64,000 bases of DNA from Chryseobacterium lactis (lineage in GTDB: Bacteria; Bacteroidota; Bacteroidia; Flavobacteriales; Weeksellaceae), in NCBI RefSeq assembly GCF_003815875.1, contig NZ_CP033924.1, positions 2,418,001 to 2,482,000 of the forward strand, given 5' to 3'. Below are positions 6,150 through 42,462 of this stretch, in pieces; the stretch's first letter is position 1, and every line of letters begins with the position of its first letter. A program made the position numbers and the translations under genes. Under the pieces are notes generated by a model, which saw only the letters and a list, made by a program, of their open reading frames with translations, did no database searches and was not told the origin of the DNA.

Positions 6150-6257
6150 AAAAATGTTGTAAATAAAATAAATTTAGATTTCTTCCGTTATTTCAAAAAA
6201 AATCTTAAAAGTTTCTTAAAAAAATTATATATTTACGGCTTAATTATAAAAATTAAC

Positions 6258-7682: not shown

Positions 7683-7736
7683 CCAGACAATTATTTTCAA
7701 TACAATTTTATTTAACATTAAAAAAACTAACTCAAT

Positions 7737-8429
7737 ATGTTTAAGACAAAAGATGCTTGGATGAATTTCTTCTATTCATTCGGTGCTGCAATTGTAATTC
7801 TTGGAGCTTGGCTTAAAATTACTCACATTACCCTGGGACCAATTAACGGTAATATCGCTCTTACAGTAGGGCTTATTACAGAGGCTATTATCTTTATCAT
7901 TTTTGCCTTTGACCCTCCAAAAACTGAAGAGTCTTATGCCTGGGAAAATGTTTATCCTGAATTATTAGATAAGCATGCACACCCGAACCCTTTACACTCA
8001 AATGTAACAACTAAAAATACAAAGGATCAATTTGCTGAACTTGAAAATTCTCTGTCTAACAAATTAGACAAGATGCTTCAGGATGCTAAATTAGATGTAC
8101 AATTATTTGACAGACTAAGAACAGGAATTGATAAATTCTCAAGTTCTGTTGACCAGATCAATCAGACTGTGGATGTATCTGCTTCTACCCATAAATATAA
8201 TGATCAGCTAAACAAAGCGGCTCTGCATATGGAAAGTATGAATGCTTTATACGCAATGCAGCTTGAAAATGGCAAAAAGCAATCTGAATTTGCTAATAAA
8301 TATGTGGCAGATATGCAGAAATCTGCTGAACATTCTGAAAAATTCAATCAAGAGCTACAAGGTTTAACTTCTAATCTTAATAATTTAAATAGAGTTTATG
8401 GTGGTATGCTAACCGCTATGAAATCTTAA
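7737..8429 (+). CDS. gldL: Type IX secretion motor protein GldL
   Basis: GldL is the inner-membrane partner of GldM in the proton-driven motor of type IX secretion and gliding. At 230 aa it has two N-terminal transmembrane helices (about residues 10-28 and 36-58) with a conserved Glu in the second, TEAIIFIIFAFDPP. A long cytoplasmic coiled-coil-like C-terminal region follows. It sits 54 bp after gldK. Confidence 0.95.
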   Translation: MFKTKDAWMNFFYSFGAAIVILGAWLKITHITLGPINGNIALTVGLITEAIIFIIFAFDPPKTEESYAWENVYPELLDKHAHPNPLHSNVTTKNTKDQFAELENSLSNKLDKMLQDAKLDVQLFDRLRTGIDKFSSSVDQINQTVDVSASTHKYNDQLNKAALHMESMNALYAMQLENGKKQSEFANKYVADMQKSAEHSEKFNQELQGLTSNLNNLNRVYGGMLTAMKS

Positions 8430-8481
8430 TTCCTAACCATTTCTAATTTTAACTATTTAATCAACAAACAAAGAAAAGAGA

Positions 8482-10074
8482 ATGGCACAAGGAAAACAGA
8501 CCCCTCGTCAGAAGATGATCAACCTGATGTATTTGGTGTTCATCGCGATGATGGCCCTAAATATTGATGCAGAAATCATCAGATCATATTATGACTCTAC
8601 AAGAGCGCTGAATGAAACAAGAACTTTAACGGAAAGAAAAAATGAAAAGATTTTTGAAAGAACGTTAGAAGCTAAAGCGCAACAAGTTCCTGATACCTAT
8701 GCAAAACCTTGGGAAGATTACAAAGTTTTGAAGACCAAGATTGACGTATTGGTTAAATCTGCTCAGGATATCAAAGATTTGTTGAAAAAACAATCTGAGT
8801 TTCATGATAAAGATCCTAAAACAGGAAAAGAAATCGATGTAAGTGAAAATTTCGCTGCATTGAATAACAATGAGGCTACAACTGAATACTTCTTTAAAGA
8901 AGGAGATGAAAATTCACCGTCTCCTAATGCGCTGGAACTAAAACGTAAAATTGATGATGTAAGAAATTATATCAACACTACTTTTGGTAACAATGCACAA
9001 CTTAAAGATTTGGTAGAGAGAGCTAACAAGTCTCTTATCGCGGAGTACCCTAAAGGGAAATCCCCAAATGATAAGACCTGGTTCCAAAATAAATTTTATC
9101 ACCAGCCGCTAATTGCTGCAATATCTAACTTGGAGATTATCCAAAATGATGCCAGAAATGTTCAGTCTGATGCATTAGCACTATTGCTTCAGGAAAAAGT
9201 TGATGCTAGTATTAAGTTTTCTAGCTATGAGCCAATTGTTTCAGGTCCGGTTGACATCCAGGCTGGTAAGCAGGCCGAAGTTAAAGTAATGCTGGGAACT
9301 TATTCAAACAGTAACAAGATCAGTATTTCTGGTGTTAGTAAAGTGGAGAATGGTAAAGGTATTATTTCAATCACCGGTGCCGGAATAGGAGAACATAAGT
9401 TAGGAGGAACTATTACATTAACAGATGCTTCAGGTAAGTCACAACCTTTCCCTTGGACGCATACCTATAATGTAATCGCAGGTCCTAGAGAAGTAAAACT
9501 TGAAAAAGGATTATTACTTTCTGCTGATAAAATGAATGTAATGTATAGAGGACTTGAGAACCCTGTATCAGGATCAATCTTAGGTGCCGATAATTCTAAA
9601 CTTTCATTATCAGCTCCGGGAGCTACTGTAAAAAATACAGGTCCTGGTAAATGGAATGTGAAGCCTTCAACAGGTACTACAGTTAAGTTGACACTTTCCG
9701 GAGTAGATCCTTATGGTAAAACAGTATCTCAGGTATTTGAATATAGAATCAAGAATGTACCACCACCGCAAGGTCAGATGAGAGGTATGAACGTATTGTC
9801 AATGCCGGCAACGTCTATTCCAAATCAATCTGTACAGGCTGCTATTCCTGATTTCGACTTCCCGGTTTCATTTACTGTAACTCAGTTTATGGTAAGAGTA
9901 CCTGGTAGAGCAGCATTATTGATTCATGGTAATTCATTAAATGACGCAGCAGGATTAATCAAGAATCTGAGAACCGGAGATGTTGTTTCAATATTTGATA
10001 TTAAAGCTACAGCTCAAGGTCTTGAAGGACAAACTATTAAAAACATTACTCCTATACTAATTAATGTTCAATAG
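8482..10074 (+). CDS. gldM: Type IX secretion motor protein GldM
   Basis: GldM is the periplasm-spanning shaft of the type IX motor, linking the GldL stator to the GldKN ring. At 530 aa it has a short cytoplasmic start (MAQGKQTPRQKMINLMYLVF), one transmembrane helix at about residues 12-30, a helical bundle domain (residues 60-220), and then beta domains ending in VSIFDIKATAQG. Length and order match the family. It lies 52 bp after gldL. Confidence 0.95.
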   Translation: MAQGKQTPRQKMINLMYLVFIAMMALNIDAEIIRSYYDSTRALNETRTLTERKNEKIFERTLEAKAQQVPDTYAKPWEDYKVLKTKIDVLVKSAQDIKDLLKKQSEFHDKDPKTGKEIDVSENFAALNNNEATTEYFFKEGDENSPSPNALELKRKIDDVRNYINTTFGNNAQLKDLVERANKSLIAEYPKGKSPNDKTWFQNKFYHQPLIAAISNLEIIQNDARNVQSDALALLLQEKVDASIKFSSYEPIVSGPVDIQAGKQAEVKVMLGTYSNSNKISISGVSKVENGKGIISITGAGIGEHKLGGTITLTDASGKSQPFPWTHTYNVIAGPREVKLEKGLLLSADKMNVMYRGLENPVSGSILGADNSKLSLSAPGATVKNTGPGKWNVKPSTGTTVKLTLSGVDPYGKTVSQVFEYRIKNVPPPQGQMRGMNVLSMPATSIPNQSVQAAIPDFDFPVSFTVTQFMVRVPGRAALLIHGNSLNDAAGLIKNLRTGDVVSIFDIKATAQGLEGQTIKNITPILINVQ

Positions 10075-10094
10075 GACTAAAATTGTAATTTATT

Positions 10095-11033
10095 ATGAAA
10101 AAATATATTAGCACCCTTTTAGTATTAGTTTCGGGATTTGCTTTTTCCCAGACTATTCTGAACGCTTCTTCTCCAGAAGAGTTTAGAAAGATGAGAGAGG
10201 AGAACAAACAAAAAGTTGGTGATACTATTATTGATAAAACAGTAAAACCTCTTGAATATGGATTTGTTGAGGATAAAGATATCCTTAAGAGTATGTTTGT
10301 TTGGGAAATCATTGATATGAATGATAAGATCAACCAACCGTTCTATTATGACAATCCGGATGGTCTTCTTGCTACTCCTACAAGATCTTTATATCAGTTA
10401 TTGCTAGATGCAGCTTTAACAGGGAAAATTGAGCAGGTATATGATGATGAAAACTTTACAGTGAAACTTTCTCCTGAAGGAATTCAGAAAAGATTGGAAA
10501 ATGTTAGAATCAACGATGCTGCCATTGATATCTTAAACTCTGGAAGACAACTAACAGATAAGGAGAAAAAAGAATATACCGACGTATTTAAAACGACCAC
10601 TGATAAAGTAAAAGTTCTTAAAATAATGGGTATGTGGTTTGTGGATAAGAGAGATGGACAAATGAAGTACAGACCTCTTGGTCTCGCAGCTATGGGACCT
10701 GACCCTGCAGTACAGGGAGTTATCGGACCAGACGGAAAACCTATTGCAGGAAATGATGAGCTTATCGATTTGTTCTGGATTTTCTATCCTAATGCAAGAG
10801 ATATTTTAGCTAATAATTATGTTTTCAACAGAAAAAATTCTTCAGCTGACTTATCTTTCGATGATATTATCAATGCAAGAAGATTTTCATCGGTTATCTA
10901 TAAATCTTCAAGCGGTTTAGGAGATGGTACTATTAAAGATTACATCCCTAAAGATGCTGATGATCAGATAGATGAAAGTGATAGGATCAAAAAGCAGATT
11001 CTTGAAATGGAAAATGATATGTGGAATTACTAG
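10095..11033 (+). CDS. gldN: Type IX secretion ring protein GldN
   Basis: GldN is a periplasmic ring component that pairs with GldK and is needed for secretion of cargo with type IX C-terminal domains. The 312-aa protein has a cleavable signal peptide (MKKYISTLLVLVSGFAFSQ) and the family segments MFVWEIIDMNDKINQPFYY and DLFWIFYPNARDILA. It follows gldM by 20 bp and ends in a strong terminator, closing the operon. Confidence 0.95.
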   Translation: MKKYISTLLVLVSGFAFSQTILNASSPEEFRKMREENKQKVGDTIIDKTVKPLEYGFVEDKDILKSMFVWEIIDMNDKINQPFYYDNPDGLLATPTRSLYQLLLDAALTGKIEQVYDDENFTVKLSPEGIQKRLENVRINDAAIDILNSGRQLTDKEKKEYTDVFKTTTDKVKVLKIMGMWFVDKRDGQMKYRPLGLAAMGPDPAVQGVIGPDGKPIAGNDELIDLFWIFYPNARDILANNYVFNRKNSSADLSFDDIINARRFSSVIYKSSSGLGDGTIKDYIPKDADDQIDESDRIKKQILEMENDMWNY

Positions 11034-11053
11034 ATTTCACTTGATATTTATAC

Positions 11054-11084
11054 AAAACCTGAGTACTTTTACTCAGGTTTTTTT
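11054..11084 (+). terminator. Terminator after gldKLMN
   Basis: The stem AAACCTGAGTA (11055-11065) pairs with TACTCAGGTTT (11070-11080) and is followed by a T tract. Confidence 0.85.
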
Positions 11085-11173
11085 ATTATGAAATCACCCC
11101 TTTGTTTATTGCTTATAAGTAGTAAATGAAGTAGGTGATTGCATATGACCTTTAAGTAAATGAAATTTCTCAT

Positions 11174-12208
11174 ATGAAAAATGTAGATTATATTATCGTA
11201 GGTGACGGATATGCTGGGCTGTTTTTTGCCCATCAGCTGATTAAAAATAACAAATCATTTGTGATTTTTTCTGAAGGGAGAAAGAGTGCATCTCAGGTTT
11301 CTGCCGGAATTATCAATCCTGTTGTTCTCAAAAAGTTTACCACATTCTGGAAAGCTCAGGAACAAATTGATTTTCTTAAAGACAGTCTTAAAGAGATCGC
11401 ATCATATACAGGTAAAAACTATTTGATTGATGCTTCTATTCACAGAATTTTTCATGACGAAAACGAACAAAAGCTTTGGTTAAAAAAATCAGCTACCGAA
11501 GAACTGTCTGGTTTTCTTGAAGAAAAATTTGAGCATATAGATATAGTAAAAAACGACTTTCACACCGGAAAGGTAAATCAATCTGCCAGACTTAATGTGA
11601 ATGGATTTTTCACCGGTTTATTTGATTATTTTGAAAAAAATGACTTTTTAGTAAAAGAAAAATTCGATTACACCCTGCTGGATCCTTCTCAATTGGTTTA
11701 TAAAGATTTTAATTTTAAAAATATTATTTTCTGTGAGGGTATGGCGGTAAAAGACAACCCTTATTTTTCCGGGATTACAGTAAATGCCAACAAAGGCCAT
11801 CATATAAGGGTTAAGCTTTCTCAACCCATTCCTGAAAATATAACGATTAAAAAGAAGCACTTTTTATTTCCAACCGATAACGGACTTCACTTTTATGGTG
11901 GAACGTATGATAGAGACCAACTTCATAATCATGTTGATGAATCTGCCGTTACCCAATTGGTAAATGGGCTTTCGGAATTTTATCCCTATGATTTTGAAGT
12001 AAAAGAGGTGCATTTTGGTTTTCGTCCGACGGTAAAAGACAGAAGACCTATCATTGGAAGACAAGGAACTTTTAATAATTTGTACGTTTTCAATGGGCTC
12101 GGCGCACGTGGTATTTTGAACGGATGTTATTTTGCCAGGGATTTATTCCGTTGTATTGAAGAGGATATTCCTTTGCATGAAGAAGTTTCATTGAATCGAT
12201 TTGAATAA
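11174..12208 (+). CDS. NAD(P)/FAD-dependent oxidoreductase (DAO family)
   Basis: This 344-aa protein has an N-terminal Rossmann FAD-binding motif (VDYIIVGDGYAGLFFAHQL, the second Gly of GxGxxG replaced by Asp) and a C-terminal D-amino-acid-oxidase-type closing segment (GFRPTVKDRRPIIG, then NGLGARGILNGCYFA). The fold predicts a flavin oxidoreductase acting on an amine or amino acid. The substrate cannot be told from the sequence. It is monocistronic or paired with the SemiSWEET gene 42 bp downstream. Confidence 0.8.
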   Translation: MKNVDYIIVGDGYAGLFFAHQLIKNNKSFVIFSEGRKSASQVSAGIINPVVLKKFTTFWKAQEQIDFLKDSLKEIASYTGKNYLIDASIHRIFHDENEQKLWLKKSATEELSGFLEEKFEHIDIVKNDFHTGKVNQSARLNVNGFFTGLFDYFEKNDFLVKEKFDYTLLDPSQLVYKDFNFKNIIFCEGMAVKDNPYFSGITVNANKGHHIRVKLSQPIPENITIKKKHFLFPTDNGLHFYGGTYDRDQLHNHVDESAVTQLVNGLSEFYPYDFEVKEVHFGFRPTVKDRRPIIGRQGTFNNLYVFNGLGARGILNGCYFARDLFRCIEEDIPLHEEVSLNRFE

Positions 12209-12250
12209 GCTATTGTAAAAATTCATATTTTTATAGTAATCAACGAATTT

Positions 12251-12511
12251 ATGAATGAAAATATATTAGGTATTGTGGCAGGAGTACTTACTTCAGTCTC
12301 GATGATTCCTCAACTGGTAAAAGTGATTAAAGAGAAAAATGTAGAAGACATCTCTTTGGTTATGCTTTTGATTTTGATTTCAGGATTGTCGCTGTGGGTA
12401 TGGTATGGGGTAATGAAGAACGAATTACCGATTATCTTATCCAATTCATTTGCCGTTCTGGTGAATCTAAGCCTTTTAATATATTATCTGAAATTCAATA
12501 AAAAGACATAA
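12251..12511 (+). CDS. SemiSWEET-type sugar transporter
   Basis: This 86-aa protein has three transmembrane helices and the PQ-loop motif (SMIPQLVKVIKEKNVEDISL). SemiSWEETs work as dimers that passively move small sugars across the inner membrane. The length is typical. The stop is immediately followed by a bidirectional terminator. Confidence 0.88.
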   Translation: MNENILGIVAGVLTSVSMIPQLVKVIKEKNVEDISLVMLLILISGLSLWVWYGVMKNELPIILSNSFAVLVNLSLLIYYLKFNKKT

Positions 12512-12540
12512 AAAATGCCTTACAATCGTAAGGCATTTTT
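12511..12540. terminator. Bidirectional terminator
   Basis: A 13-bp stem AAAAATGCCTTAC/GTAAGGCATTTTT sits between two convergent genes, with A- and T-rich flanks that serve both strands. Confidence 0.85.
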
Positions 12541-12559
12541 ATTTTGATTTGATTCTTTA

Positions 12560-12994
12560 TTATTGAAGGACAAATTTAGCTAAAGGAGCCATTCTTGCCT
12601 TGTTTAAAGTCAAAGTATTTCCATTTATAGAATAATTATCGGCAGATAGCAAAGCCTTTGAAAACTGGTTTTCAATATCCAGATCTTCACACGCCATCAT
12701 CGTAGATACTCCCTGATTAAACTTAATTCTCATGATATCCTGTTTGATTTCAAAAGTACCGCCCAATCCGTTACAACCGGCGTAACCTTCGTATTTCATT
12801 CCATTCATATCAAGTTTGAAATGTGGATTATTTTTAGGATTTTTTAGTTTGATAGGCTGCCCGTTAAGTTCAGTTAATTTCCAGGTTTTTCCTGTGATAT
12901 CTGTTGTGGTTGGTTTCTGTGCAGTTTGTGTATTACATGAAACAAGAAATACAGCCAGAAAAAGAGCTGATAAATAAGAATACAAGCTTTTCAT
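12560..12994 (-). CDS. META domain lipoprotein (HslJ-like)
   Basis: This 144-aa lipoprotein has a signal with lipobox (AVFLVSC, Cys20) and a single META domain: GKTWKLTELNGQPI, then YAGCNGLGGTFEI and MMACEDLDIENQFSKAL. META proteins are small envelope proteins often linked to stress or heat, and their mechanism is not established. The next gene upstream on the same strand is another small lipoprotein, 33 bp away. Confidence 0.85.
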   Translation of the reverse strand: MKSLYSYLSALFLAVFLVSCNTQTAQKPTTTDITGKTWKLTELNGQPIKLKNPKNNPHFKLDMNGMKYEGYAGCNGLGGTFEIKQDIMRIKFNQGVSTMMACEDLDIENQFSKALLSADNYSINGNTLTLNKARMAPLAKFVLQ

Positions 12995-32385: not shown

Positions 32386-32410
32386 TGGCGGAAAGGGAGG
32401 GATTCGAACT
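32386..32410 (-). other. tRNA-Ser 3'-end fragment, probable attachment site
   Basis: The minus strand reads TTCGAATCCCTCCCTTTCCG followed by CCA. This is the T loop, the 3' half of the T stem, a 7-nt acceptor half, the Ser-type discriminator G and an encoded CCA. The 5' part is absent: upstream bases cannot form the T stem. Truncated tRNA 3' ends of this type mark integration of elements that use tRNA genes. Confidence 0.65.
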
Positions 32411-32735
32411 AACTCGTTCCATCCACTTTAAAACCATATTTTCAAGTATATTTTAAATTACTGCCATGATACTGCCATCAAAAAAATATTGGCAAAATCA
32501 ACGCTATAATCATATTATAACGACATCAAAGAACATCCATAACTCTTAATCAAATGTACAAAATTATATATTATGGCTGACGTATGAATTTATTTAAGCC
32601 AGCTCATACAATTTGGATCATCCAATTTCGCTCTGTTATGGGCTGTAAGAATTCTATTAATGCATCATGAATTCCTGCATAAAGACATAGAATATTCTTT
32701 AGAAGTTGATATATTTGCATCAAATGTGGATTAAT
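32411..32735. repeat. Island left end with tandem 11-bp repeats and cassette promoter
   Basis: This region is non-coding. Two adjacent minus-strand 11-mers, ATGGCAGTATC (32468-32478) and ATGGCAGTAAT (32457-32467), mirror the pair left of the tRNA fragment. An inverted-orientation TTGGCAAAATC is at 32488-32498. TATATTTG at 32710-32717 fits the -7 consensus and is 18 bp before the XRE start. Confidence 0.5.
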
Positions 32736-32951
32736 ATGAGTAGAAAGCCAATCAATAGACTTAAAGCTGTTTTAGCGGAACAAGGAAAGACAAACAAATG
32801 GCTTGCAGAGCAATTAAACAAAAACGAAACTACTGTTTCTCGTTGGTGCACAAACGAAGTACAGCCGTCTATGGACACCTTAGTAGCAATTGCAACGATA
32901 TTAGAAATTAATGTGAGGGAGTTGATTAACCCAACTAAAACAGAAAAGTAA
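32736..32951 (+). CDS. XRE-family HTH regulator (controller-like)
   Basis: This 71-aa single-domain protein starts MSRKPINRLKAVLAEQGKTN and carries a Cro/CI helix-turn-helix (NKWLAEQLNKNETTVSRWCTNEVQP). Its stop TAA overlaps the methylase ATG by one base (TAATG), so the two are translationally coupled. Small XRE proteins placed first in restriction-modification operons usually act as controllers that time methylase and nuclease expression. The start is placed after the -7 box rather than at an upstream TTG. Confidence 0.85.
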   Translation: MSRKPINRLKAVLAEQGKTNKWLAEQLNKNETTVSRWCTNEVQPSMDTLVAIATILEINVRELINPTKTEK

Positions 32952-35221
32952 TGGTAGTAGAAATAAAAGGTAATAAGATCAAGGCTCCTCTTAAAGGTAA
33001 TAATGTTTGGATACCTACCAGCCCAGAGGAGGAAATTCGTCAAAAATATATATGCAGATTAGTTAATGTTTATGGTTTCACCACTAAACAAATGGTTCAA
33101 GATTACGATTATTCTCAGATAACAGATAAAAAGGTTAAGTCTGACATATTGGTATGGAAAAATGAAATGAGCCTCAAAAACAACGAAAAGCCTTTGATTT
33201 TTATTGAATGTAAATCAGATAGTATCATAATTAGACCTGAAGATTATTTTAAAGGAATTGAAATTTCGAAGCAAATTGGGGCAGAATTTTTTGTCGCTAC
33301 AAATTCTAAACAAACTAAAATATATTCCAAAGTTTTCAAAATAACTGAGAAAGGGCACCCTAATGAGTTGATAAATATACCGACAAATGAACAAGCCCAA
33401 GATGACCATATTGTTTCTGTTTTATTAGGGCAGACAAATGAATTTGCACGAGATGAATTTAGTAAAACACTTACAAGATGTCATAATATAATTAGAAACA
33501 ATGACAAACTATCGCCAGAGGCTGCATTTGACGAGATCAGTAAGGTTTTGTTTGTCAAGACCATATATGAAAGGTCTAATACTGAAGGTAATATATTTAG
33601 CATAAAAACGTATCTAGATTTAAAACAAAATTTTGTAGACCTACCTGTTAATAGAAACTTACCATTTTATCAAGAACTTTTTGAAAAAGTAAAAAGAGAA
33701 TTGATTGATGATGATCTATTTGAGCCGAGCGAGATAATCCGCATAAGAGAGAATAGCTTTGAAGCGATTGTGAAGGAATTAGAAATTTATAATCTTTCAA
33801 CAACTTCTGATGACGTAAAAGGTATTGCTTTTGAACAATTTTTGGGTAAAACTTTCAGAGGAGAATTAGGACAGTTCTTTACACCAAGAACAATTGTAGA
33901 TTTTATGGTAGAAGTTCTCGACCCGCAGGAAAGTGAAGTAATTTGCGATCCTTGTTGTGGATCAGGTGGTTTTTTAATTAAGGCTTTTGAATACGTGAGA
34001 GCAAAAATTGAAAATGAAATCCATTTAGTCAAAGAAAAAACTAAAGAACAATACTATGATGAAAAATTCGAAAAACTAACAGAAAAAAAGAAAGCAGAAA
34101 TTGATGAAAAAGTCAACGAGCTTTTTATAAAACTAAATTCAGAATTAGACATCAATAATCCAAAAAGTAGAATTAGAGTATTAAGCTATGACTGTATTTT
34201 TGGAACAGATGCAAATCCAAGAATGAGCAGAACCGCAAAAATGAATATGATTATGCACGGAGATGGGCACGGCGGGGTGCATCATAATGATGGACTACTG
34301 AATGTAAATGGGATTTTTGAAAATCGGTTTGATGTTATTCTTACCAATCCACCTTTTGGAAGTCGAGTAGAAAAATCGTTGAAAATCACTGAAGCAGATA
34401 AATATACCGATACGAAAAGAATAGCAAAATACCGCGAAAGATACGGCGAGGAATATGAAGCAGCTCTAAAGCAAATCAATGAAAATATAGATAAGCCATT
34501 GTTAGATTTATACGATACTGGAAGTATGAGTACGCTCACAGAAGTGTTATTTATTGAACGTTGTTTGAATTTGTTAAAACCAGGTGGACGAATGGGGATT
34601 GTGTTGCCAGAAGGTGTATTAAATAATACCAATTTGCAAAAGATAAGAGATTATGTAGAAAGCAGGGCTAAAATTTTGCTTATAGTATCAATTCCGCAAG
34701 ATGTGTTTATAGCAAGTGGAGCAACGGTTAAACCAAGTTTAGTTTTCTTTAAAAAATTTACCAAAGATGAAGCGGAACAATATCGAAAAATCATTAAAAA
34801 AACAGAAAAGGAAATTAAAGAGAAGTATGAATCGGAAACAAAACCAATTCTTGCAGAATTGGGAGTGAAAGGTAAAGAAGCACTTAAAGCTGAAGAAAAA
34901 AAGAAACTACGTACAGAGCTAAAAAAAATTAGTGAAAACATTACTGTAGAAATAAAAGCACAAGTAAAAAAAGAATTTAATTATGAAATTCCAATTGCTG
35001 AAATTGAAAAAGCAGGTATTAGTACAACAGGCGGCCTAATTGAAAATGAATTAAAACCATTGGCAACAGAATTTAAAACATATAAAGAACAAAAACGACT
35101 TTGGATAAACAATAAGAAAGAGGTCAAATACGAAATAACGGATGGAGACATCCATCGGTTAAGCATTATTGATGGAAATGTTTCTGAGCCCGAATTATTT
35201 TATGTTAAAGCAAAGGACTAA
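32951..35221 (+). CDS. Fused nuclease-N6-adenine DNA methylase (type I M / BcgI A-like)
   Basis: This 756-aa protein has an HsdR-N-type PD-(D/E)xK domain at its N terminus (PEEEIRQKYICRLV about 25-38, Asp65 in KSDILVW, Glu86-Cys-Lys88 in IFIECKSD). An HsdM-like helical region follows, then an N6-adenine methylase with motif I DPCCGSGG at 333-340 and motif IV NPPFG at 466-470. The Lys-rich C-terminal region is probably helical. Fusion of cleavage and methylation in one chain with a separate specificity subunit is the plan of type IIB BcgI. No HsdR motor gene is present, so a classical type I enzyme is unlikely. The next gene, HsdS, overlaps by TAATG. Confidence 0.88.
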   Translation: MVVEIKGNKIKAPLKGNNVWIPTSPEEEIRQKYICRLVNVYGFTTKQMVQDYDYSQITDKKVKSDILVWKNEMSLKNNEKPLIFIECKSDSIIIRPEDYFKGIEISKQIGAEFFVATNSKQTKIYSKVFKITEKGHPNELINIPTNEQAQDDHIVSVLLGQTNEFARDEFSKTLTRCHNIIRNNDKLSPEAAFDEISKVLFVKTIYERSNTEGNIFSIKTYLDLKQNFVDLPVNRNLPFYQELFEKVKRELIDDDLFEPSEIIRIRENSFEAIVKELEIYNLSTTSDDVKGIAFEQFLGKTFRGELGQFFTPRTIVDFMVEVLDPQESEVICDPCCGSGGFLIKAFEYVRAKIENEIHLVKEKTKEQYYDEKFEKLTEKKKAEIDEKVNELFIKLNSELDINNPKSRIRVLSYDCIFGTDANPRMSRTAKMNMIMHGDGHGGVHHNDGLLNVNGIFENRFDVILTNPPFGSRVEKSLKITEADKYTDTKRIAKYRERYGEEYEAALKQINENIDKPLLDLYDTGSMSTLTEVLFIERCLNLLKPGGRMGIVLPEGVLNNTNLQKIRDYVESRAKILLIVSIPQDVFIASGATVKPSLVFFKKFTKDEAEQYRKIIKKTEKEIKEKYESETKPILAELGVKGKEALKAEEKKKLRTELKKISENITVEIKAQVKKEFNYEIPIAEIEKAGISTTGGLIENELKPLATEFKTYKEQKRLWINNKKEVKYEITDGDIHRLSIIDGNVSEPELFYVKAKD

Positions 35222-36558
35222 TGCAGGTAACGGAAAAAACATATTTAAATTATATAAACCTTCTTCGATTAAACAATTGGAGTGTTCCAGGCTTACTTGA
35301 TTCTACCCTTAATTATTCGCATGAATTTCCTTTATCACGAATAGGCGATTTTTTGATAAAGAGTAGAAATGTTATCAGTATTGATGATAACAAAATTTAC
35401 AAACGAGTAACTGTTAGAATCAATAATAATGGAGTAGTTTTAAGAGATACAGAAAAGGGAAAAAATATTGGAACGAAAAAGCAGTATTTAGCAAAATCAG
35501 GACAATTTATTGTTTCAAAAATTGATGCAAGAAATGGAGCTTTTGGTATAATTCCAGAGGATCTTAACGATGCAATCGTTACCAATGATTTTCCGATATA
35601 TAATGTTGATACCACGAAGATAAATCCTCAATTTTTACTATTAATAACGACAACAAGACAATTCATAGAATTTGCCCAGAGCTGTAGTAGTGGAACAACA
35701 AATAGACAAAGAATGGATATTGATTTATTCTTAAATCAAAAAGTATCCTTACCTTTTCTACATGAACAAGAAACGATCTTAAAGAATTACTACACTAAAA
35801 TCAATCAAGCTGAAAAGCTCAATCGACAGGCAGATGGTTTAGAAACTGAGATTGAGCTGTATTTTTTAGAGCAATTGGGAATTAGGAAGAATATAACAAG
35901 TACTTTTAGTAAAGGACTCAGAATAATTGAATATAAAAATCTTGATAGATGGGATGCAAATACAGTTAGTGAATTAACTTCTGCCTACAAAATTGAAAAA
36001 ATAGGAAGTTACATTTTGAAGATCGCTACTGGAACTACTCCGCCAACAAATAGACCTGAATACTTTAATGGCGAAATAAATTTTTATACCCCTTCTGATT
36101 TAGGAGAAATTATGTTTTTAAATGCAGCATCAAGAAAAGTTTCTGAATTGTCATTCTTAGAGAAAAAGGCGCGCCGATTTGAAAAAGGAACAATCCTTTT
36201 TGTAGGTATTGGCTCAACGGTCGGCAAAGTAGGAATTGTAAATAATGATTATGCAACTAGTAATCAACAAATTACTGGTTTTAATTTAGACCCTCGTTTC
36301 CTGTTAAATGAATATGTGTACTTCTATTTCTACTATCTTAGAGACATTACAATAAAAGAACAAACAAAAGCGACTCTCCCAATTGTAAATCAAAACAAGA
36401 TAATAAATATTCCTATTCCGATTCCTCCTATTTCAAAACAGAAAGATATTATCGAGGAAATTTCAAAAATGAAAAACAAGAAATGGGTATTTGAATCAGA
36501 AGCAAGAAAACTTGTCAATGAAGCTCATCAAGAATTTGAACAAACAATATTTCGTTAA
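35221..36558 (+). CDS. Restriction-modification specificity subunit (HsdS-like)
   Basis: This 445-aa protein has two target-recognition domains (about residues 30-190 and 245-405). Each ends in the conserved Leu/Pro-rich boundary (KVSLPFLHEQETILKNYY, and IPIPIPPISKQKDIIEEI) followed by a long spacer helix. It directs the upstream methylase-nuclease to a bipartite DNA sequence. It is translationally coupled to the methylase and followed after 3 bp by an ATPase gene, which ties the restriction pair to the downstream module. Confidence 0.88.
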   Translation: MQVTEKTYLNYINLLRLNNWSVPGLLDSTLNYSHEFPLSRIGDFLIKSRNVISIDDNKIYKRVTVRINNNGVVLRDTEKGKNIGTKKQYLAKSGQFIVSKIDARNGAFGIIPEDLNDAIVTNDFPIYNVDTTKINPQFLLLITTTRQFIEFAQSCSSGTTNRQRMDIDLFLNQKVSLPFLHEQETILKNYYTKINQAEKLNRQADGLETEIELYFLEQLGIRKNITSTFSKGLRIIEYKNLDRWDANTVSELTSAYKIEKIGSYILKIATGTTPPTNRPEYFNGEINFYTPSDLGEIMFLNAASRKVSELSFLEKKARRFEKGTILFVGIGSTVGKVGIVNNDYATSNQQITGFNLDPRFLLNEYVYFYFYYLRDITIKEQTKATLPIVNQNKIINIPIPIPPISKQKDIIEEISKMKNKKWVFESEARKLVNEAHQEFEQTIFR

Positions 36559-36561
36559 GCT

Positions 36562-38661
36562 ATGAAGATAACTAAACTCAATATATACAATTATAAAAAT
36601 CTAAATGTCGAATTAGTCAATACTTCGAGTATAATTGCTTTGATAGGTAATAACGGTAGTGGGAAAAGCAACATATTGGAGGCGATTAGTACTATTTTCT
36701 TTCATTTGTTCCAGAAGAAAGAAAAAGATATACCCTTTAATTTCCTGATTGAATATGAATTTGGAGGAAATCAAACAGTCAGCGTAGAAAAGAAAAATTC
36801 AACTATTCATTTTAAAGTTAATAGTAATTTGCGCGCTGATATACAGCAGTTCTTGCCAAAACAAATTGTTGCACTATATAGTGGCGAAGAAAACAGGCTG
36901 TGGAATAAATCGTATGAGCCACTATACATGGCTTATGTAAACGGTATTAATAAGTCTGAAGCAAGTGGCTTAGGAGAGTATATTATTGTTCCTAAAATGC
37001 TATACATCAATAAGTTTTATTGGCACATATCATTACTCTGTCTTTTAATTTCTGATGCTCCCGACACCAAAACGTTTTGTGAAGAAACACTTGGCATTAA
37101 TAAAATTAACTCCATAAAATTTGATTTTAAAACAGCGAATTATGCCAATTATACCAATAGTTCGGTTAAAAATTTTATCAATTTAATAGACAAAAAAAGC
37201 GAATATACTCTTGATGAATTAAAGAAAATAATTTCAGAATGCCCTTTTTCACTTGCTGAGATCTATAAATATCTATACTTGGCATTTACTCCCGACAAAA
37301 AAAAAATGCTGGAAAATATTACCATTAAATACAATGATAATAACTTAGACATTGAGGATTTTAGCGAGGGCGAAAAGAAGATGTTATTAATTAAAGCTGC
37401 ATTGGAATTTGCAGGTTTGGAAGATAGCTTGTTTTTATTAGACGAACCAGATGCTCATATACATTTAAGTAACAAAATTCAAATTAAAAATGTATTTAAA
37501 GAGTACTTAGACACCAGGCAAGTAATATTGACAACACACTCTCCTACACTTACGGACACCTTAGATGAAGAAAGTCTTTTTATGTTAAATACTGGTTATT
37601 TGGTACACCATAAAAAGCAGGAGATTTTAGAAAGCGTTTCAGGCGAATTTTGGAACAAGTTTCAGCAAAATGCTTTTATTGCCTCAAAAAAACCAATCAT
37701 ATTACTTCTAGAAGGGAGGCACGATAGAACCCACATTCATAATGCTTTTGAAGCTTTGAAAAATGATTACCCAAAATTGGATTTTCAGTGTTTTGTACTG
37801 AATGGAGAAAGTAAAATTCAACCCTTTTTAAGTGGGTTGTATGAAAGTGATTTTTATACAGATAAACTTTACATTGGTATTTATGATAATGATGGAGCAG
37901 GAGACAAGTCTTTCAGCAATGGATTTGAGAAAGTAAACGACAATTTTAAGAAACTTAAAGAAAGTAATGCTAAGGAAAACAATAGCTATTTTGCAATAAA
38001 ATTACCAAAGCCAACTGGCATTACTTGTGATTGTACTATCGAAACTTTATATGCATTAGAGAAATTTGAAGAAGCTATACAGTCAGCTACTCACAATGCT
38101 TTAGGACACCTAAAAAATAAATCTATTGATGAAATTACGAAAGGGATAAAAGAACAAGCCAAGAATATTTTGAGTGTGAACTCTCAAGACTTTAAAGTAG
38201 AAGACTTTATAAACTTTAGATTACTTTTCAATTTAATATTGGAAATTACCGAACATAGAAGTAGCCTACTTAAAGGTGTTAAGAAAGCAGAGAAAATAGA
38301 GCGCGTCCCACAATCTGTAAGAAAGGCTTCACCAAGTGCAGAAAAGTTCATTGAAATATATACAAATCGAAGAAATACGGAAGTAAATGCACTTTATTAC
38401 AGTGAGAAAAAAATTACTATTAAAAGTGGGAGCAAATTATCTATTAATGTTGTTGATAGTTATGGTCCAAAAGTTGAAAGAAGTAAAGAGCTAAAAAAGA
38501 TTGCCGATTTGCAGGAAAATTGTTGGATATTAAAGGAGGATATAGTTTTTAATTCAGTTTCTGGTGCTATAAATTATGCAACTGGTGGGAATATGAATGG
38601 ATGGTCTCATTGGTTAATTAAAGAAAATGACAAACCTCTTGAATTCATAAGAAAAAAATAA
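36562..38661 (+). CDS. ATPase-TOPRIM-DUF4357 fusion (OLD/PARIS-like)
   Basis: This 699-aa protein has an ABC/SMC-type ATPase split around a helical insert: Walker A GNNGSGKS at 29-36, signature FSEGEKK at 267-273, Walker B FLLDEPDAH with Asp294-Glu295, and His326 in TTHSP. A TOPRIM-like segment follows with Glu384 (LLLEGRHD) and Asp442-x-Asp444 (GIYDNDGAG). The C-terminal region (about 620-699, SGAINYATGGNMNGWSHW) has the pattern of DUF4357. ATPase plus TOPRIM is the plan of OLD-family nucleases and fused PARIS (AriAB) proteins. The DUF4357 tail is unusual there. The start is 3 bp after hsdS, so it belongs to the same operon. A nuclease or abortive-infection effector is inferred. Confidence 0.75.
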   Translation: MKITKLNIYNYKNLNVELVNTSSIIALIGNNGSGKSNILEAISTIFFHLFQKKEKDIPFNFLIEYEFGGNQTVSVEKKNSTIHFKVNSNLRADIQQFLPKQIVALYSGEENRLWNKSYEPLYMAYVNGINKSEASGLGEYIIVPKMLYINKFYWHISLLCLLISDAPDTKTFCEETLGINKINSIKFDFKTANYANYTNSSVKNFINLIDKKSEYTLDELKKIISECPFSLAEIYKYLYLAFTPDKKKMLENITIKYNDNNLDIEDFSEGEKKMLLIKAALEFAGLEDSLFLLDEPDAHIHLSNKIQIKNVFKEYLDTRQVILTTHSPTLTDTLDEESLFMLNTGYLVHHKKQEILESVSGEFWNKFQQNAFIASKKPIILLLEGRHDRTHIHNAFEALKNDYPKLDFQCFVLNGESKIQPFLSGLYESDFYTDKLYIGIYDNDGAGDKSFSNGFEKVNDNFKKLKESNAKENNSYFAIKLPKPTGITCDCTIETLYALEKFEEAIQSATHNALGHLKNKSIDEITKGIKEQAKNILSVNSQDFKVEDFINFRLLFNLILEITEHRSSLLKGVKKAEKIERVPQSVRKASPSAEKFIEIYTNRRNTEVNALYYSEKKITIKSGSKLSINVVDSYGPKVERSKELKKIADLQENCWILKEDIVFNSVSGAINYATGGNMNGWSHWLIKENDKPLEFIRKK

Positions 38662-38702
38662 CTGATAAAGCGCAATAATGAACGACAACATAATTCAAAA
38701 AT

Positions 38703-40205
38703 ATGCAAATAAGATCTTTATATATTAGCAATTATAAATTACTCAAAGACTTTACTATTAATTTCAAGAAAGATGTTTCTATTCTCATTGGCATCAATGG
38801 TTCTGGAAAGTCTAGTATTTTAGAGGTTATTGCTCAAATTTTCAGTGATAGTTATCTTGATGAAAAATCCAAGTTCGGTTTTTCCATCGAGTATGAAATA
38901 CGTTTAGAAGAAATTCTTGCACAAACAACTACTTCTGCAGAGTTTAAGACAGAATACATAAAAGTTCAGATAAGTGCTCAAAAAGCAGGACAAGAACTGA
39001 AATACAAAGTATTTAGTGGTGCACAAGTACTGGAAGACAATAATTCGATTGAAAAAAAATACGGTTCTCTTGAAAAAATATTGCCAAGCAACATCGTCAT
39101 CTATTATAGTGGTTTGGCAGATATAATGAAAAAGATATGTCTTCCTCACGATGAAAAGCTATCTGTTAATTATCGAAAAGGAAATACAGCAATACACCGC
39201 CCGTTTTTTTATTTTGAACCTCCTTTGTTTAATTTAATACTAATTACGCTTCTGTCTTATGAATATGGAGATATTCCAAAGTTTCTTTTTGATAGAATGA
39301 AAATTACCGGGATACAAAGCATTCAAATTAACCTTACAAAACCAAATTGGGGTAAAAGTAAAATTAATGAATGGTGGGGAGCAAAAGGAGAAGTGAAGAC
39401 ATTTTTGGATTTATTATCCGGTTTAGGTTCTCCTTTAGAAATTAAGGACGAAGATTTACAAGGTGAATCAAAGGGAAATGTCGTAATTGAAGGTTGGCAA
39501 AATGATAATCTTATTATTACTATTCTTGGACAAGAAAAGCTGTTTCAAATTAGAGAATATTTTGTAGAAGAAAGAACATTGTTTAAGGTTCTAAATACAC
39601 TTTTAATAGATGGATTTCAACCTGAAGTGAAATTCTCATTTTTCCATAAGGATGATAATGATAGCGTAAGCACCTTCGGTACCCTAAGTGAAGGCGAACA
39701 ACAATCAATTATTATACGAGGATTAATAGAACTTGTCAATAATGAGAATACTTTGTTTTTATTTGATGAGCCTGATACTTATTTACATCCTTCTTGGCAA
39801 AGAAAATTCATAGAAAATATAAATGAATTGACCGAGAATAATGCATACAATAACAGTCAATTCCTTATCACAACACATTCGCCGCAACTATTGAGTAATG
39901 CTGACCCTGAAAATAGTGATGTACAAATAATGGAAGATGGAGAGATAATAAAAGTTACACCGAAATATTATGGCAAAGATATCAGTACAATTTTGTATGA
40001 AATGATGGGTGTGGAAAGAAGAAATAAAAAAGTATCTAAGTTATTAAGTTCTTTGTTCAATATGATCGAAGATGAAGAAATCGAAGAATCAAAAAAACAG
40101 TATAACAGTCTTGTTGAACTTTTGGGAGATGATGATCCCGCATTGGTTAGAGCTAAAATACAAATTGATTACTTAGAAGAAGAAGCCGATGAAACAGATA
40201 ACTAA
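38703..40205 (+). CDS. ptuA: Septu-type ATPase (PtuA-like)
   Basis: This 500-aa ABC-like ATPase has Walker A GINGSGKS at 30-37, signature LSEGEQQ from 328, Walker B FLFDEPDTYLHP with Asp355-Glu356, and the His392 switch in TTHSP. The C-terminal segment (YGKDISTILYEMMGVERR, then LLGDDDPALVRAKIQIDYLE) matches that of PtuA proteins in Septu and retron-Eco7 systems. PtuA binds PtuB, and ATP depletion or DNA sensing is thought to release nuclease activity. It is 41 bp after the preceding ATPase and overlaps the HNH gene by 17 bp. Confidence 0.82.
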   Translation: MQIRSLYISNYKLLKDFTINFKKDVSILIGINGSGKSSILEVIAQIFSDSYLDEKSKFGFSIEYEIRLEEILAQTTTSAEFKTEYIKVQISAQKAGQELKYKVFSGAQVLEDNNSIEKKYGSLEKILPSNIVIYYSGLADIMKKICLPHDEKLSVNYRKGNTAIHRPFFYFEPPLFNLILITLLSYEYGDIPKFLFDRMKITGIQSIQINLTKPNWGKSKINEWWGAKGEVKTFLDLLSGLGSPLEIKDEDLQGESKGNVVIEGWQNDNLIITILGQEKLFQIREYFVEERTLFKVLNTLLIDGFQPEVKFSFFHKDDNDSVSTFGTLSEGEQQSIIIRGLIELVNNENTLFLFDEPDTYLHPSWQRKFIENINELTENNAYNNSQFLITTHSPQLLSNADPENSDVQIMEDGEIIKVTPKYYGKDISTILYEMMGVERRNKKVSKLLSSLFNMIEDEEIEESKKQYNSLVELLGDDDPALVRAKIQIDYLEEEADETDN

Positions 40206-40857
40206 ACTTAAAGAACCAAATTCATTGCTTCAACATAGAGCCCAACAGTTCGCTGCTTTTGATAATATACCTAATGCGACCAAAGAAGAACTTAAGGAGA
40301 ATCTTCTATCAGAACAAGGACATATTTGTTGTTATTGTATGAGAAGAATTCCAGAAAATTCCTCTCCTTATATGAAAGTTGAACATTACAAATGTCAAGA
40401 ACATTTTCAAGACCTGCAGTTAGATTATAGAAATTTATTAGGTGCTTGTACAGGAAACGAAGGACATCCAAAAAAACTTCAAACTTGTGATACTCAAAAA
40501 TCTAGTGAGACTTTAACAATTAATCCTCTCAATACCAATCCAAGCTGTGAAACATTGTTCAAATTTAATTCAGAAGGAGAAATGAGTTCAATATCTGACG
40601 ATGAAGCTGTAGATAGGCAAATAAATACTGTTCTCAATTTGAATATGCAATCTTTAAAAGATGCCCGCAAGGAAGTTTATTATGTAGTTCAAGAGAGAAT
40701 AAGAGCAGAAAGTAAACGAACAAAAAATGATAAACCATCATTTGTAAGGTTTCTTAATCAGGAACTTCAAGTATGGCAAAGCAAAACAGAAGGGAAATAT
40801 CGACCTTACTGCTTGGTAGCAATCTACTATCTAACAAAGAAATTAAAAAGTAACTAA
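40189..40857 (+). CDS. ptuB: Septu-type HNH nuclease (PtuB-like, TIGR02646)
   Basis: This 222-aa protein has a zinc-type HNH core near residues 45-105: ICCYC (Cys47, Cys50), VEHYK (Glu65-His66), YRNLLGAC (Asn82, Cys87) and a later Cys in LQTC. The TIGR02646 continuation INPLNTNPSCETLFKF is present, as is the helical tail NLNMQSLKDARKEV. It is the effector nuclease partner of the ATPase whose 3' end it overlaps. It is the last gene of the operon. About 430 bp without an intact gene follow. Confidence 0.82.
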   Translation: MKQITKLKEPNSLLQHRAQQFAAFDNIPNATKEELKENLLSEQGHICCYCMRRIPENSSPYMKVEHYKCQEHFQDLQLDYRNLLGACTGNEGHPKKLQTCDTQKSSETLTINPLNTNPSCETLFKFNSEGEMSSISDDEAVDRQINTVLNLNMQSLKDARKEVYYVVQERIRAESKRTKNDKPSFVRFLNQELQVWQSKTEGKYRPYCLVAIYYLTKKLKSN

Positions 40858-40954
40858 ATTAAACTATATTAAAAAATTCAGGTTCCAATATCTACGCATA
40901 CTCGAACTACATTTTTTAAATTAATGTAAAACTACCTTTTCAGCGATTTTGAAA

Positions 40955-41190: not shown

Positions 41191-41194
41191 AAAT

Positions 41195-41232
41195 AAAAAA
41201 TACAAAGACTCAGAAGAATCTTTGTATTTTTT
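41195..41232. terminator. Bidirectional terminator
   Basis: A 14-bp stem AAAAAATACAAAGA/TCTTTGTATTTTTT lies downstream of the minus-strand acyltransferase. Confidence 0.8.
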
Positions 41233-41289
41233 ATAGTGTTGTAACACTGTATGTAGGTGCCCTAATTCATTACAGTAATTCAGAATCTT

Positions 41290-42462
41290 CTAAAGATATC
41301 GCTGAACAAATTTTAATTTCCTAAATAAGAAAGTGATGTACCAGCTCACCGAGAATGATATACAGAATGTAATCATAAATTTGCCAAATGCAGGGATATT
41401 TGCATCCAATAATTCATATTGACACCATAGTACAAAAATATAGTGAATAAGGTAGATGCCATAAGCATTTGAAGAAAGCGATTGCCACCAATCGGTAGGG
41501 TGGTTAAAAAGTCTTTTAAAAAGAACTAAAAATGCTAAACAACTTAAACTGCAAGAAAAGGTCCAGACGGAACGATAGAGCAGAGTTGCCTGAAAAATTG
41601 TAAGTATATTTCTCGAAATCATAGTTTCCAGTGGTAGTTCTATAACTTTTACTATAGCGTAGACTGAAATACAACCTAATATCCAAAGAATGGGCTTACG
41701 AAATAATTCTGAAGTATCCCCAAATAGACCTTCTTCTATCTTGATGCCACCTATTATAACACCTAAGGAAAAATAGCCAAAGTATAGTAATATACGACTT
41801 ACCTGAAAATCAAAAGGTCCTATTCCTTTCCAGGTTCCTGATCCGAAACTGAGCATCATCGGTAGATATAGTATCCACGTTAGAGAGTAAAATACAAGTA
41901 ATACTTTTAATGGGCTGTTTTTAAGATTGTTAATCTTTAATGATAAAGTTGTTATACTGTGTTTTAAATATGGATACAATATGGTTATGATAATATTGAA
42001 AGCAAACAAAACCCAAATGAACCAGGGTGGTCCCACGGGCCAGGATTCAATTGTAAAAAAATCGACTAGATAATCTTTTAAATCGCCCTTCCCATACGCC
42101 AATAGAAATGCGGGATAATGTGCTATAACCATCAAGATGCAAACACCTATTAAAAAAGGGATGAACAATCTGTAAAAGCGTTCTTTGAGATAGAGTTTAG
42201 TTCCTCTATTAAGGCCTTTTATTACAAAAATTCCACTTATTAAGAACATTAATGACATAAAAAAGATATCATTAAAATCTTCAAATATGTCGAGACCGAC
42301 CCATCGGTAACGATCTACAATTGGATGAGTAGAATTACTGTAGGCTGCTTTATCAAAGGAGGCAAATGTTGTATATGCTAAAGAGGAGTGGTGGGCCACC
42401 ACCAGTAAGGTAATAAATCCGCGGAGGTAATCTATCCAGACTGTACGGCTGTTATTTTTCAT
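41290..42462 (-). CDS. Acyltransferase family 3 membrane protein
   Basis: This 390-aa integral membrane protein with about ten transmembrane helices begins VWIDYLRGFITLLVVAHHSSLAY. The RGF and His motif is typical of acyltransferase-3/OafA proteins, which O-acylate surface sugars or lipids. NAYGIYLIHYIFVLW near the C terminus is also characteristic. It is carried beside a LytTR regulator gene on the same strand, 113 bp apart, as cargo of the mobile region. Confidence 0.85.
   Translation of the reverse strand: MKNNSRTVWIDYLRGFITLLVVAHHSSLAYTTFASFDKAAYSNSTHPIVDRYRWVGLDIFEDFNDIFFMSLMFLISGIFVIKGLNRGTKLYLKERFYRLFIPFLIGVCILMVIAHYPAFLLAYGKGDLKDYLVDFFTIESWPVGPPWFIWVLFAFNIIITILYPYLKHSITTLSLKINNLKNSPLKVLLVFYSLTWILYLPMMLSFGSGTWKGIGPFDFQVSRILLYFGYFSLGVIIGGIKIEEGLFGDTSELFRKPILWILGCISVYAIVKVIELPLETMISRNILTIFQATLLYRSVWTFSCSLSCLAFLVLFKRLFNHPTDWWQSLSSNAYGIYLIHYIFVLWCQYELLDANIPAFGKFMITFCISFSVSWYITFLFRKLKFVQRYL

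Follow-up and report, generated by a model that had tools for sequence, protein, structure and literature searches.

Do six co-directional genes that join a restriction-modification (R-M) pair to two ATPase-nuclease modules make up one coordinated defence system, or are they merely carried together? The question was raised for Chryseobacterium lactis by an earlier note on a 64,000-nucleotide stretch of its genome (contig NZ_CP033924.1), which is called the window below. The genes in question (Table 1) encode a small helix-turn-helix regulator (HTH), a nuclease-methylase (M), a specificity subunit (S), an ATPase-TOPRIM-DUF4357 protein (ATT), and the Septu pair PtuA and PtuB (PtuAB). Comparison with related loci showed that M and S are the constant core. 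The genes behind them encode ATT, PtuAB, or the two together, or else a Fic protein, and some more distant relatives have none. We consider it fairly probable that the operon combines a motorless R-M core, self-sufficient and BcgI-like in its layout, with exchangeable ATPase-nuclease backup effectors, here termed the payload, under one regulated promoter.

Exchange of the payload behind a constant M-S core

ATT relatives were collected and their neighborhoods inspected; at E 1e-10, 1333 proteins are homologous to ATT. All 18 relatives examined among the matches listed (at least 385 residues matched) were preceded by M and S within one gene run, in L014 by a fusion of the two. This sample comprised 11 of at least 33 loci from a motif survey, five genomes, one plasmid, and one viral contig; for its genome part, six of 319 genomes had matched, and five were counted because the sixth was locus L004 again. 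The tabulation leaves out 14 loci matching parts of the ATPase only (L023-L036) and 17 of the 19 loci of the viral-contig list, and L021 and L022, with a PtuA-like match but no match to M, were excluded from the count. ATT followed S directly in 15 of the 18 listed loci, and one or two genes stood between them in L009, L010, and L012. The hosts of these listed loci include Bacteroidota, Spirochaetota, and an alphaproteobacterial metagenome-assembled genome. Weaker relatives of ATT (24-26% identity) on two gammaproteobacterial plasmids were also situated behind an S gene. In L004 (8161-12139), two distinct ATT genes were found in tandem behind a single M-S pair.

The same picture emerged from the M side. 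Samples of 395, 197, and 395 genomes yielded 12 distinct M relatives, one of which (L050) lies on a contig that ends right after M. In the other 11 loci, the genes behind M-S were ATT in four (one cut by the contig end), PtuAB in five, a Fic protein in one (PDC-S72, 488 bits), and two unknown genes in one. PtuA adjoined S in six of seven distinct loci with PtuAB only, and the PtuA subfamily, at a threshold of E 1e-40, was present in two of the 394 further genomes sampled from the phylum, each time in an M-S locus. Further genes followed ATT in some cases, i.e. one for an SMC-like PDC-S06 protein in L048 and one for a short Argonaute in L060. In the latter locus (4649-12980), M-S-ATT, a separate DUF4357 open reading frame (PDC-S14), and the short prokaryotic Argonaute apparently form one gene run. 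The earlier note had regarded the modules as usually separate; this view has to be given up, as M-S followed by ATT or M-S followed by PtuAB is a recurring arrangement.

When payload labels were placed on a tree of 30 M proteins, 10 changes were counted versus a mean of 12.2 after shuffling, and a count as low was obtained in six of 200 shuffles, i.e. the payloads are weakly clustered. The tree resulted from a quick search, and the branches of L061, L013, and four others are long. It omits L014 (fused M-S), L050 (contig end), L063 (coordinates and scores of L015), L016-L020, and L104-L119. L059, where the contig ends inside ATT, was treated as a payload group of its own; without this label, the count is nine. 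Sister M proteins with unlike payloads were L062/L052, L081/L053, L004/L051, and L008/L011, all starred in the tree. The label for two payloads requires two changes, which are held by starred branches (the clade of the window and Chitinophaga), so the two-payload form would most simply have arisen twice.

Frequent changes of this kind would also be expected if the 3' end of a BcgI-like R-M locus were simply a site at which independent defence genes land. The promoter would then be common to all of them, and ATT and PtuAB would sense phages themselves without ever contacting M-S. We give this explanation somewhat less than an even chance. It gains from the unrelated nature of the payloads (ATT, PtuAB, or Fic PDC-S72 following S; PDC-S06 or a short Argonaute further along, after ATT) and from the reported ability of Septu to function alone in Escherichia coli (PMC13096335). 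It does not readily account for the occurrence of all 18 listed ATT relatives behind M-S, nor for the direct contact of payload and S genes in 15 of the 18 ATT loci and six of the seven PtuAB-only loci, since loose landing needs no adjacency.

The motorless M-S core

The six proteins were assigned with Pfam, PADLOC, and NCBIfam models. M matched HSDR_N_2 (62 bits) and N6_Mtase (129 bits) of Pfam and MTase_I of PADLOC (1120 bits). The nuclease residues Asp65, Glu86, and Lys88 and the methylase motif NPPF (residues 466-469) were invariant in all 18 aligned M proteins. BcgI itself is built from an RM chain plus a separate S chain. The BcgI-like layout proposed in the earlier note is thus borne out, with nuclease and N6-methylase in one chain, a separate S, and no motor, just as in type IIB systems. 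M differs in that Pfam places its nuclease in the HsdR-N kind. The solved relative RM.BsaXI gave no match to this nuclease and aligned with residues 283-621 of M only (E 5e-20), in the methylase part, and three type I M chains scored higher. M and S may also be joined, as in L014 (7536-10001), where they are fused into one open reading frame of 821 residues followed by ATT.

The statement that a type I motor is missing proved correct. A search with TIGR00348 at E 0.001 gave no HsdR match in the single-contig genome of 5.6 Mb, and 10 of the 14 named genomes serving as controls were positive. The M loci that were tabulated gave no HsdR label within ~9 kb downstream of M (phmmer, three HsdR queries). 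Although PADLOC labels M as a type I methylase, assignment to type I R-M was therefore rejected, as TIGR00348 found no HsdR motor-nuclease in the genome.

The missing HsdR and the position of ATT and PtuA next to S could also indicate that the ABC-ATPase nucleases are themselves restriction subunits in the stead of HsdR, which would be recruited to unmethylated sites marked or recognized by M-S. We consider such a replacement very unlikely. M has a nuclease domain of its own with residues invariant in 18 of 18 proteins, M-S pairs occur without any payload, and PtuAB is also found behind type I systems that do possess HsdR (L016 and L019).

Pairs without payload were seen in viral contigs, where 16 M loci were tabulated. 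Three of these had ATT or PtuAB, two being contigs already seen (L104 and L105). More distant M-S pairs in L106 and L107 (49% identity) were not accompanied by a co-directional payload; because of such pairs, M-S looks self-sufficient. In L107, an AlbA_2-type gene was noted on the opposite strand. Eight more distant viral-contig loci (L110-L117, M ~320-515 bits) consisted of M-S with no ATPase match, and the open reading frames tested in L115 and L116 were without Pfam match. These eight loci perhaps represent a motorless R-M pair that is carried by phages. L109 and L118 are truncated, and L120-L122 were left out.

The six-gene composite form

The neighborhood check suggested by the earlier note was carried out, and the set was not confined to the window genome. 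All six genes were found in the same order in four loci, i.e. the window, L091, L094, and L008. L091 and L094 belong to the family of Faecalibacter (Weeksellaceae), which is also that of the window, and L008 stems from Chitinophaga; thus, the composite is known from two families.

DNA homology between the window and L091 covered 32679-35882 (84%) and 36530-40856 (87%); with L094, it extended from 32663 to 40858. Its left edge is thus situated 57-73 nt before the HTH gene, and its right edge coincides with the PtuB stop codon to within one base. Within these edges, homology was interrupted in the second half of S in both L091 and L094 and, in L094, also over most of ATT. The first half of S is conserved, whereas the second half (about 35883-36529, compared with L091) could not be aligned at the DNA level. 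Most of the ATT gene of L094 was ~65% alike or unaligned, whereas the DUF4357 tail, PtuA, and PtuB were 87% alike. At the protein level, the window and L094 shared 85% identity for M, 53% for S, 50% for ATT, 90% for PtuA, and 87% for PtuB.

The claim of one coordinated system consequently stands in part. Recurrence, the edges of the homology block, and the promoter-like box described below argue for one unit. An obligate six-part machine is not what was found because the payload behind M-S is exchangeable.

The payload proteins ATT and PtuAB

ATT matched an ABC-type AAA model of Pfam. Its residues Lys35, Glu269, Asp294, Glu295, His326, Glu384, and Asp442, the nucleotide-binding residues of the ATPase included, were kept in all 28 aligned members, and position 444 was occupied by Asp in 24 and by Glu in four of them. 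The Pfam model OLD-like_TOPRIM matched 14 of the 28 members; the window protein itself gave no TOPRIM match in Pfam. When the family profile was compared with the PDB, the top-scoring entries were ATPases of retrons and PtuA, which aligned with the ATPase part only, and a lower-scoring match to the OLD protein of T. scotoductus (6p74) spanned the TOPRIM region together with the ATPase end. A single chain with an ABC ATPase followed by a TOPRIM nuclease is characteristic of the OLD family, including class 1, GajA of Gabija, and the effector of retron Eco8 (PMC10568477). By its predicted order of ABC ATPase and TOPRIM with the acidic residues, ATT belongs to this family. The earlier description as OLD/PARIS-type is thus right in its first half only: the TOPRIM residues are present in 28 of 28 members, whereas the DUF4435 TOPRIM of PARIS was matched in two of 28 and is absent from the window protein, so PARIS membership was rejected. 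ATT shares the single-chain plan with the OLD family and PARIS and differs in having M-S and PtuAB as neighbors, rather than a UvrD-like helicase or a retron, and in its DUF4357 tail.

This tail is optional. In the window protein, DUF4357 scored 30.1 bits, which is under the Pfam cut-off of 38.4, and 13 of the 28 members matched the model; DUF5655 was matched in two of 28. The ATT proteins of L095 (8087-10252) and L005 (10001-12154) have a common alternative C-terminal stretch instead of DUF4357, suggesting that ATT tails are modular.

The identification of PtuA and PtuB as a Septu pair was confirmed by the adjacent genes for an ABC ATPase and an HNH nuclease, each with its PADLOC match (Table 1). 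The closest PDB relatives of PtuA were the retron Ec83 ATPase (7e-19) and PtuA 8ee4 (2e-14). PtuB exceeded the cut-off of 52.15 bits for TIGR02646, and His66 and Asn82 were invariant in 12 of 12 aligned PtuB proteins. A retron origin was rejected, as Pfam detected no reverse transcriptase domain among the six proteins (msr/msd not being searched for) and as the NCBIfam retron cut-offs were not reached (PtuA 109 of 500, PtuB 115 of 150). Just as in Septu, whether free-standing or within type I-A retrons, the PtuA ATPase and the PtuB HNH protein are encoded by adjacent overlapping genes; here, however, they stand behind a motorless R-M core, and no reverse transcriptase is encoded by the six genes. 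PtuA also followed M-like genes scoring 44-76 bits in L016-L020, which come from clostridial and other genomes, and PtuB was labeled in four of these five loci.

Promoter-like box, putative operator, and boundaries of the operon

All six reading frames lie on the forward strand with tight or overlapping junctions, as had been claimed. HTH and M as well as M and S overlap by 1 nt, S and ATT are separated by 3 nt and ATT and PtuA by 41 nt, and PtuA and PtuB overlap by 17 nt.

Table 1. Positions of the operon genes and of associated sequence elements in the window
Feature	Position	Strand	Evidence
HTH, small Cro/C1-type regulator, 71 residues from ATG	32736..32951	+	Pfam HTH_26 38 bits, HTH_3 35.7 bits
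M, N-terminal PD-(D/E)XK nuclease (HSDR_N_2) fused to N6-adenine methylase	32951..35221	+	Pfam, PADLOC
S, specificity subunit with two Methylase_S stretches	35221..36558	+	Pfam Methylase_S 80.7 bits
ATT, OLD-type ABC ATPase with TOPRIM and DUF4357 tail, 699 residues	36562..38661	+	Pfam, family residues
PtuA, Septu ABC ATPase, 500 residues	38703..40205	+	PADLOC PtuA1 249 bits
PtuB, Septu HNH nuclease, 222 residues	40189..40857	+	PADLOC PtuB1 232 bits; TIGR02646 67.9 bits
Promoter-like -7 box TATATTTG (TAnnTTTG), 26 nt 5' of HTH start codon	32710..32717	+	position kept across loci
Putative operator, dyad GCAT-N3-ATGC (window form GCATCAAATGT)	32717..32727		alignment of upstream regions
Likely terminator, 19-bp hairpin with T run, possibly two-way	41193..41234	scored on -, for gene 41290-42462	terminator scan

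An HTH homologue was detected 5' of M in 11 other distinct loci (phmmer). The motif TAnnTTTG, which we take to be the -7 element of Bacteroidota, occurred at the identical place 5' of HTH in 12 of the 13 loci with an HTH gene, among them the window, the locus without it being that on a Flammeovirga plasmid (L081); base shuffles gave an expectation of 0.17 occurrences per 420 bp. The dyad GCAT-N3-ATGC was present in 11 of 12 aligned upstream regions, eight times exactly and three times (window included) with C/T changes, and was missing in L011. Its first base is always the final base of the -7 box. We infer that the HTH protein binds this dyad as a putative operator.

Separate promoters and terminators inside the operon, named in the earlier note as evidence against a single unit, did not appear at the junctions of the window cassette, to which the scan for internal boxes was applied. 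Two TAnnTTTG sites were counted in the cassette versus 3.8 expected, both within M, and forward-strand terminator-like sites were likewise found within M only. A scan for E. coli-type promoters gave 35 matches versus 41.3 in shuffles, with a consensus that does not cover Bacteroidota promoters. Taken together, these sequence data support one conserved promoter-like box that would serve the whole operon.

The cassette has a G+C content of ~31%, and most other 2-kb segments have 33-42%. A TonB receptor gene flanks it, and the best named relatives of this receptor are from Chryseobacterium and Elizabethkingia. Directly to its left, GGCGGAAAGGGAGGGATTCGAAC (32387-32409) resembles a tRNA 3' end fragment; copies with two and three mismatches are present elsewhere in the genome, and ARAGORN predicted no tRNA at 32387-32409. 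The fragment is possibly the remnant of an integration site. An empty site was sought in 59 genomes via the right-hand neighbor gene, and the sole match outside its own genome was a fragment of 42 bases. Searches against phage records returned no match for ATT at E 1e-5 and none for M at E 1e-40.

Comparison with related systems

Effector embedding in R-M loci is already known in kind. PrrC is encoded inside a type IC locus, and its activation follows the inhibition of EcoPrrI by the T4 protein Stp; the review that describes this counts PrrC and PARIS among the R-M guardians (PMC12707154). DarTG2 is embedded in the type I R-M (RptR) island of enteropathogenic E. coli (PMC12255303). Both share with the window operon a toxic nuclease or toxin module encoded within an R-M locus, and in the RptR island a small DNA-binding regulator gene comes first, as it does here. 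Their cores, however, are of type I with HsdR, whereas the window core is motorless, and the window effectors are an OLD-TOPRIM protein and PtuAB, which are stacked and exchanged across lineages. The operon was not assigned to the PrrC-type guards, as ATT and PtuAB belong to other families and HsdR is missing.

The methylation-associated defence system (MADS) likewise comprises a methylase (MAD2), an S-like subunit (MAD5), and an ABC ATPase (MAD3). M aligned with MAD2 over residues 23-612 of 756 with 287 bits, far under the curated cut-off of 720. MAD3 gave 29 bits with ATT and 37 bits with PtuA versus a cut-off of 420, MAD5 reached 34 bits versus 400, and no other MADS gene was among the matches listed for the six proteins (PADLOC, NCBIfam). 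MADS membership was rejected on these profile scores.

The precedent of PrrC bears on the coupling proposed in the earlier note, by which intact M-S would hold ATT and/or PtuAB inactive and blockage of M-S by an anti-restriction protein would cause them to fire. A survey of BREX loci (PMC12839542) interprets the OLD-ABC modules found there, whose partners are TOPRIM or HNH proteins, as backup effectors and states that similar couplings had been reported in R-M-like systems, in line with this idea. Several unrelated payloads are nonetheless attached to the same M-S core, so that a single guarding contact would need to have evolved repeatedly or be very generic. We hold such guarding to be possible but rather unlikely.

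Proposed mode of action

In the mechanism that we favor, the motorless core would act by itself and the payload would serve as a backup. S would name the DNA site, M would methylate it, and the predicted PD-(D/E)XK nuclease domain at the N terminus of M would cut unmethylated DNA. The bay behind S would usually hold ABC-ATPase nucleases, and both common payloads would be stacked in the window. ATT and PtuAB would be backup effectors, most likely infection-aborting nucleases, whose ATPases would sense infection or failed restriction; putative targets are tRNA for PtuAB and DNA or tRNA for ATT. HTH would repress the single promoter via the dyad beside the -7 box, so that core and payload rise together, and the whole operon would be transferable and autoregulated with a modular plan. 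Nuclease activity, binding of HTH to the dyad, abortion of infection by the payloads, and their trigger are points that we infer.

Abortive backup effectors appear to be the best reading of the payload because of the precedents of PrrC and of the OLD-ABC modules in BREX loci as well as those of Septu EcB88 and PARIS. Septu EcB88 cleaves tRNA-Tyr on infection, which requires both the Walker residues of PtuA and the H-N-H residues of PtuB (PMC13096335), and the PARIS TOPRIM protein AriB cuts tRNA-Lys in response to the trigger Ocr (PMC12409363).

Several observations weigh against this mechanism. Payload exchange is compatible with loose cargo as much as with functional coupling. The motif survey of at least 33 loci relied on two short motifs and may have overlooked ATT genes that lack M-S. 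The composite is a minority form, seen in three of the 18 listed ATT-anchored loci and in none of the 11 M-anchored ones. PtuAB also occurs behind type I M-S, HsdR and S being confirmed in both type I-like loci tested (L016 and L019). On the side of the core, the distant pairs L106 and L107 do without a co-directional payload, capsid or portal genes lie ~0.1-2.3 kb from S in L111, L113, and L114, and an Acidithiobacillus plasmid carries an M relative (44%) without an annotated S or ATPase beside it.

A more ambitious version, which we regard as improbable, sees HTH-M-S as a general defence chassis, in which M-S on unmethylated sites, or scanning for them, is the shared sensor that activates whichever ABC-ATPase nuclease is docked behind S. 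If this were true, the response would be layered, with cutting of foreign DNA followed by the OLD-TOPRIM nuclease and then by Septu tRNA cleavage. Methylation would license all effectors, and selection would exchange these, as well as the second target-recognition half of S, like cartridges.

Significance

A literature search retrieved no title or abstract opening that describes an HTH-M-S chassis without a motor and with an exchangeable bay for ATPase-nucleases, or a stacking of OLD-TOPRIM and Septu; part of it may be catalogued in work on genes embedded in immune systems or on ABC-ATPases. Annotation by single families would probably split the operon into a partial type I R-M system and a separate Septu system because M, S, PtuA, and PtuB each match PADLOC models of these kinds. 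The operon and its relatives are a compact natural example of a single R-M core being combined with OLD-TOPRIM, with Septu, with both or, in more distant relatives, with neither. This natural series of payload combinations makes it testable whether embedded defence genes sense the state of restriction or are merely carried.

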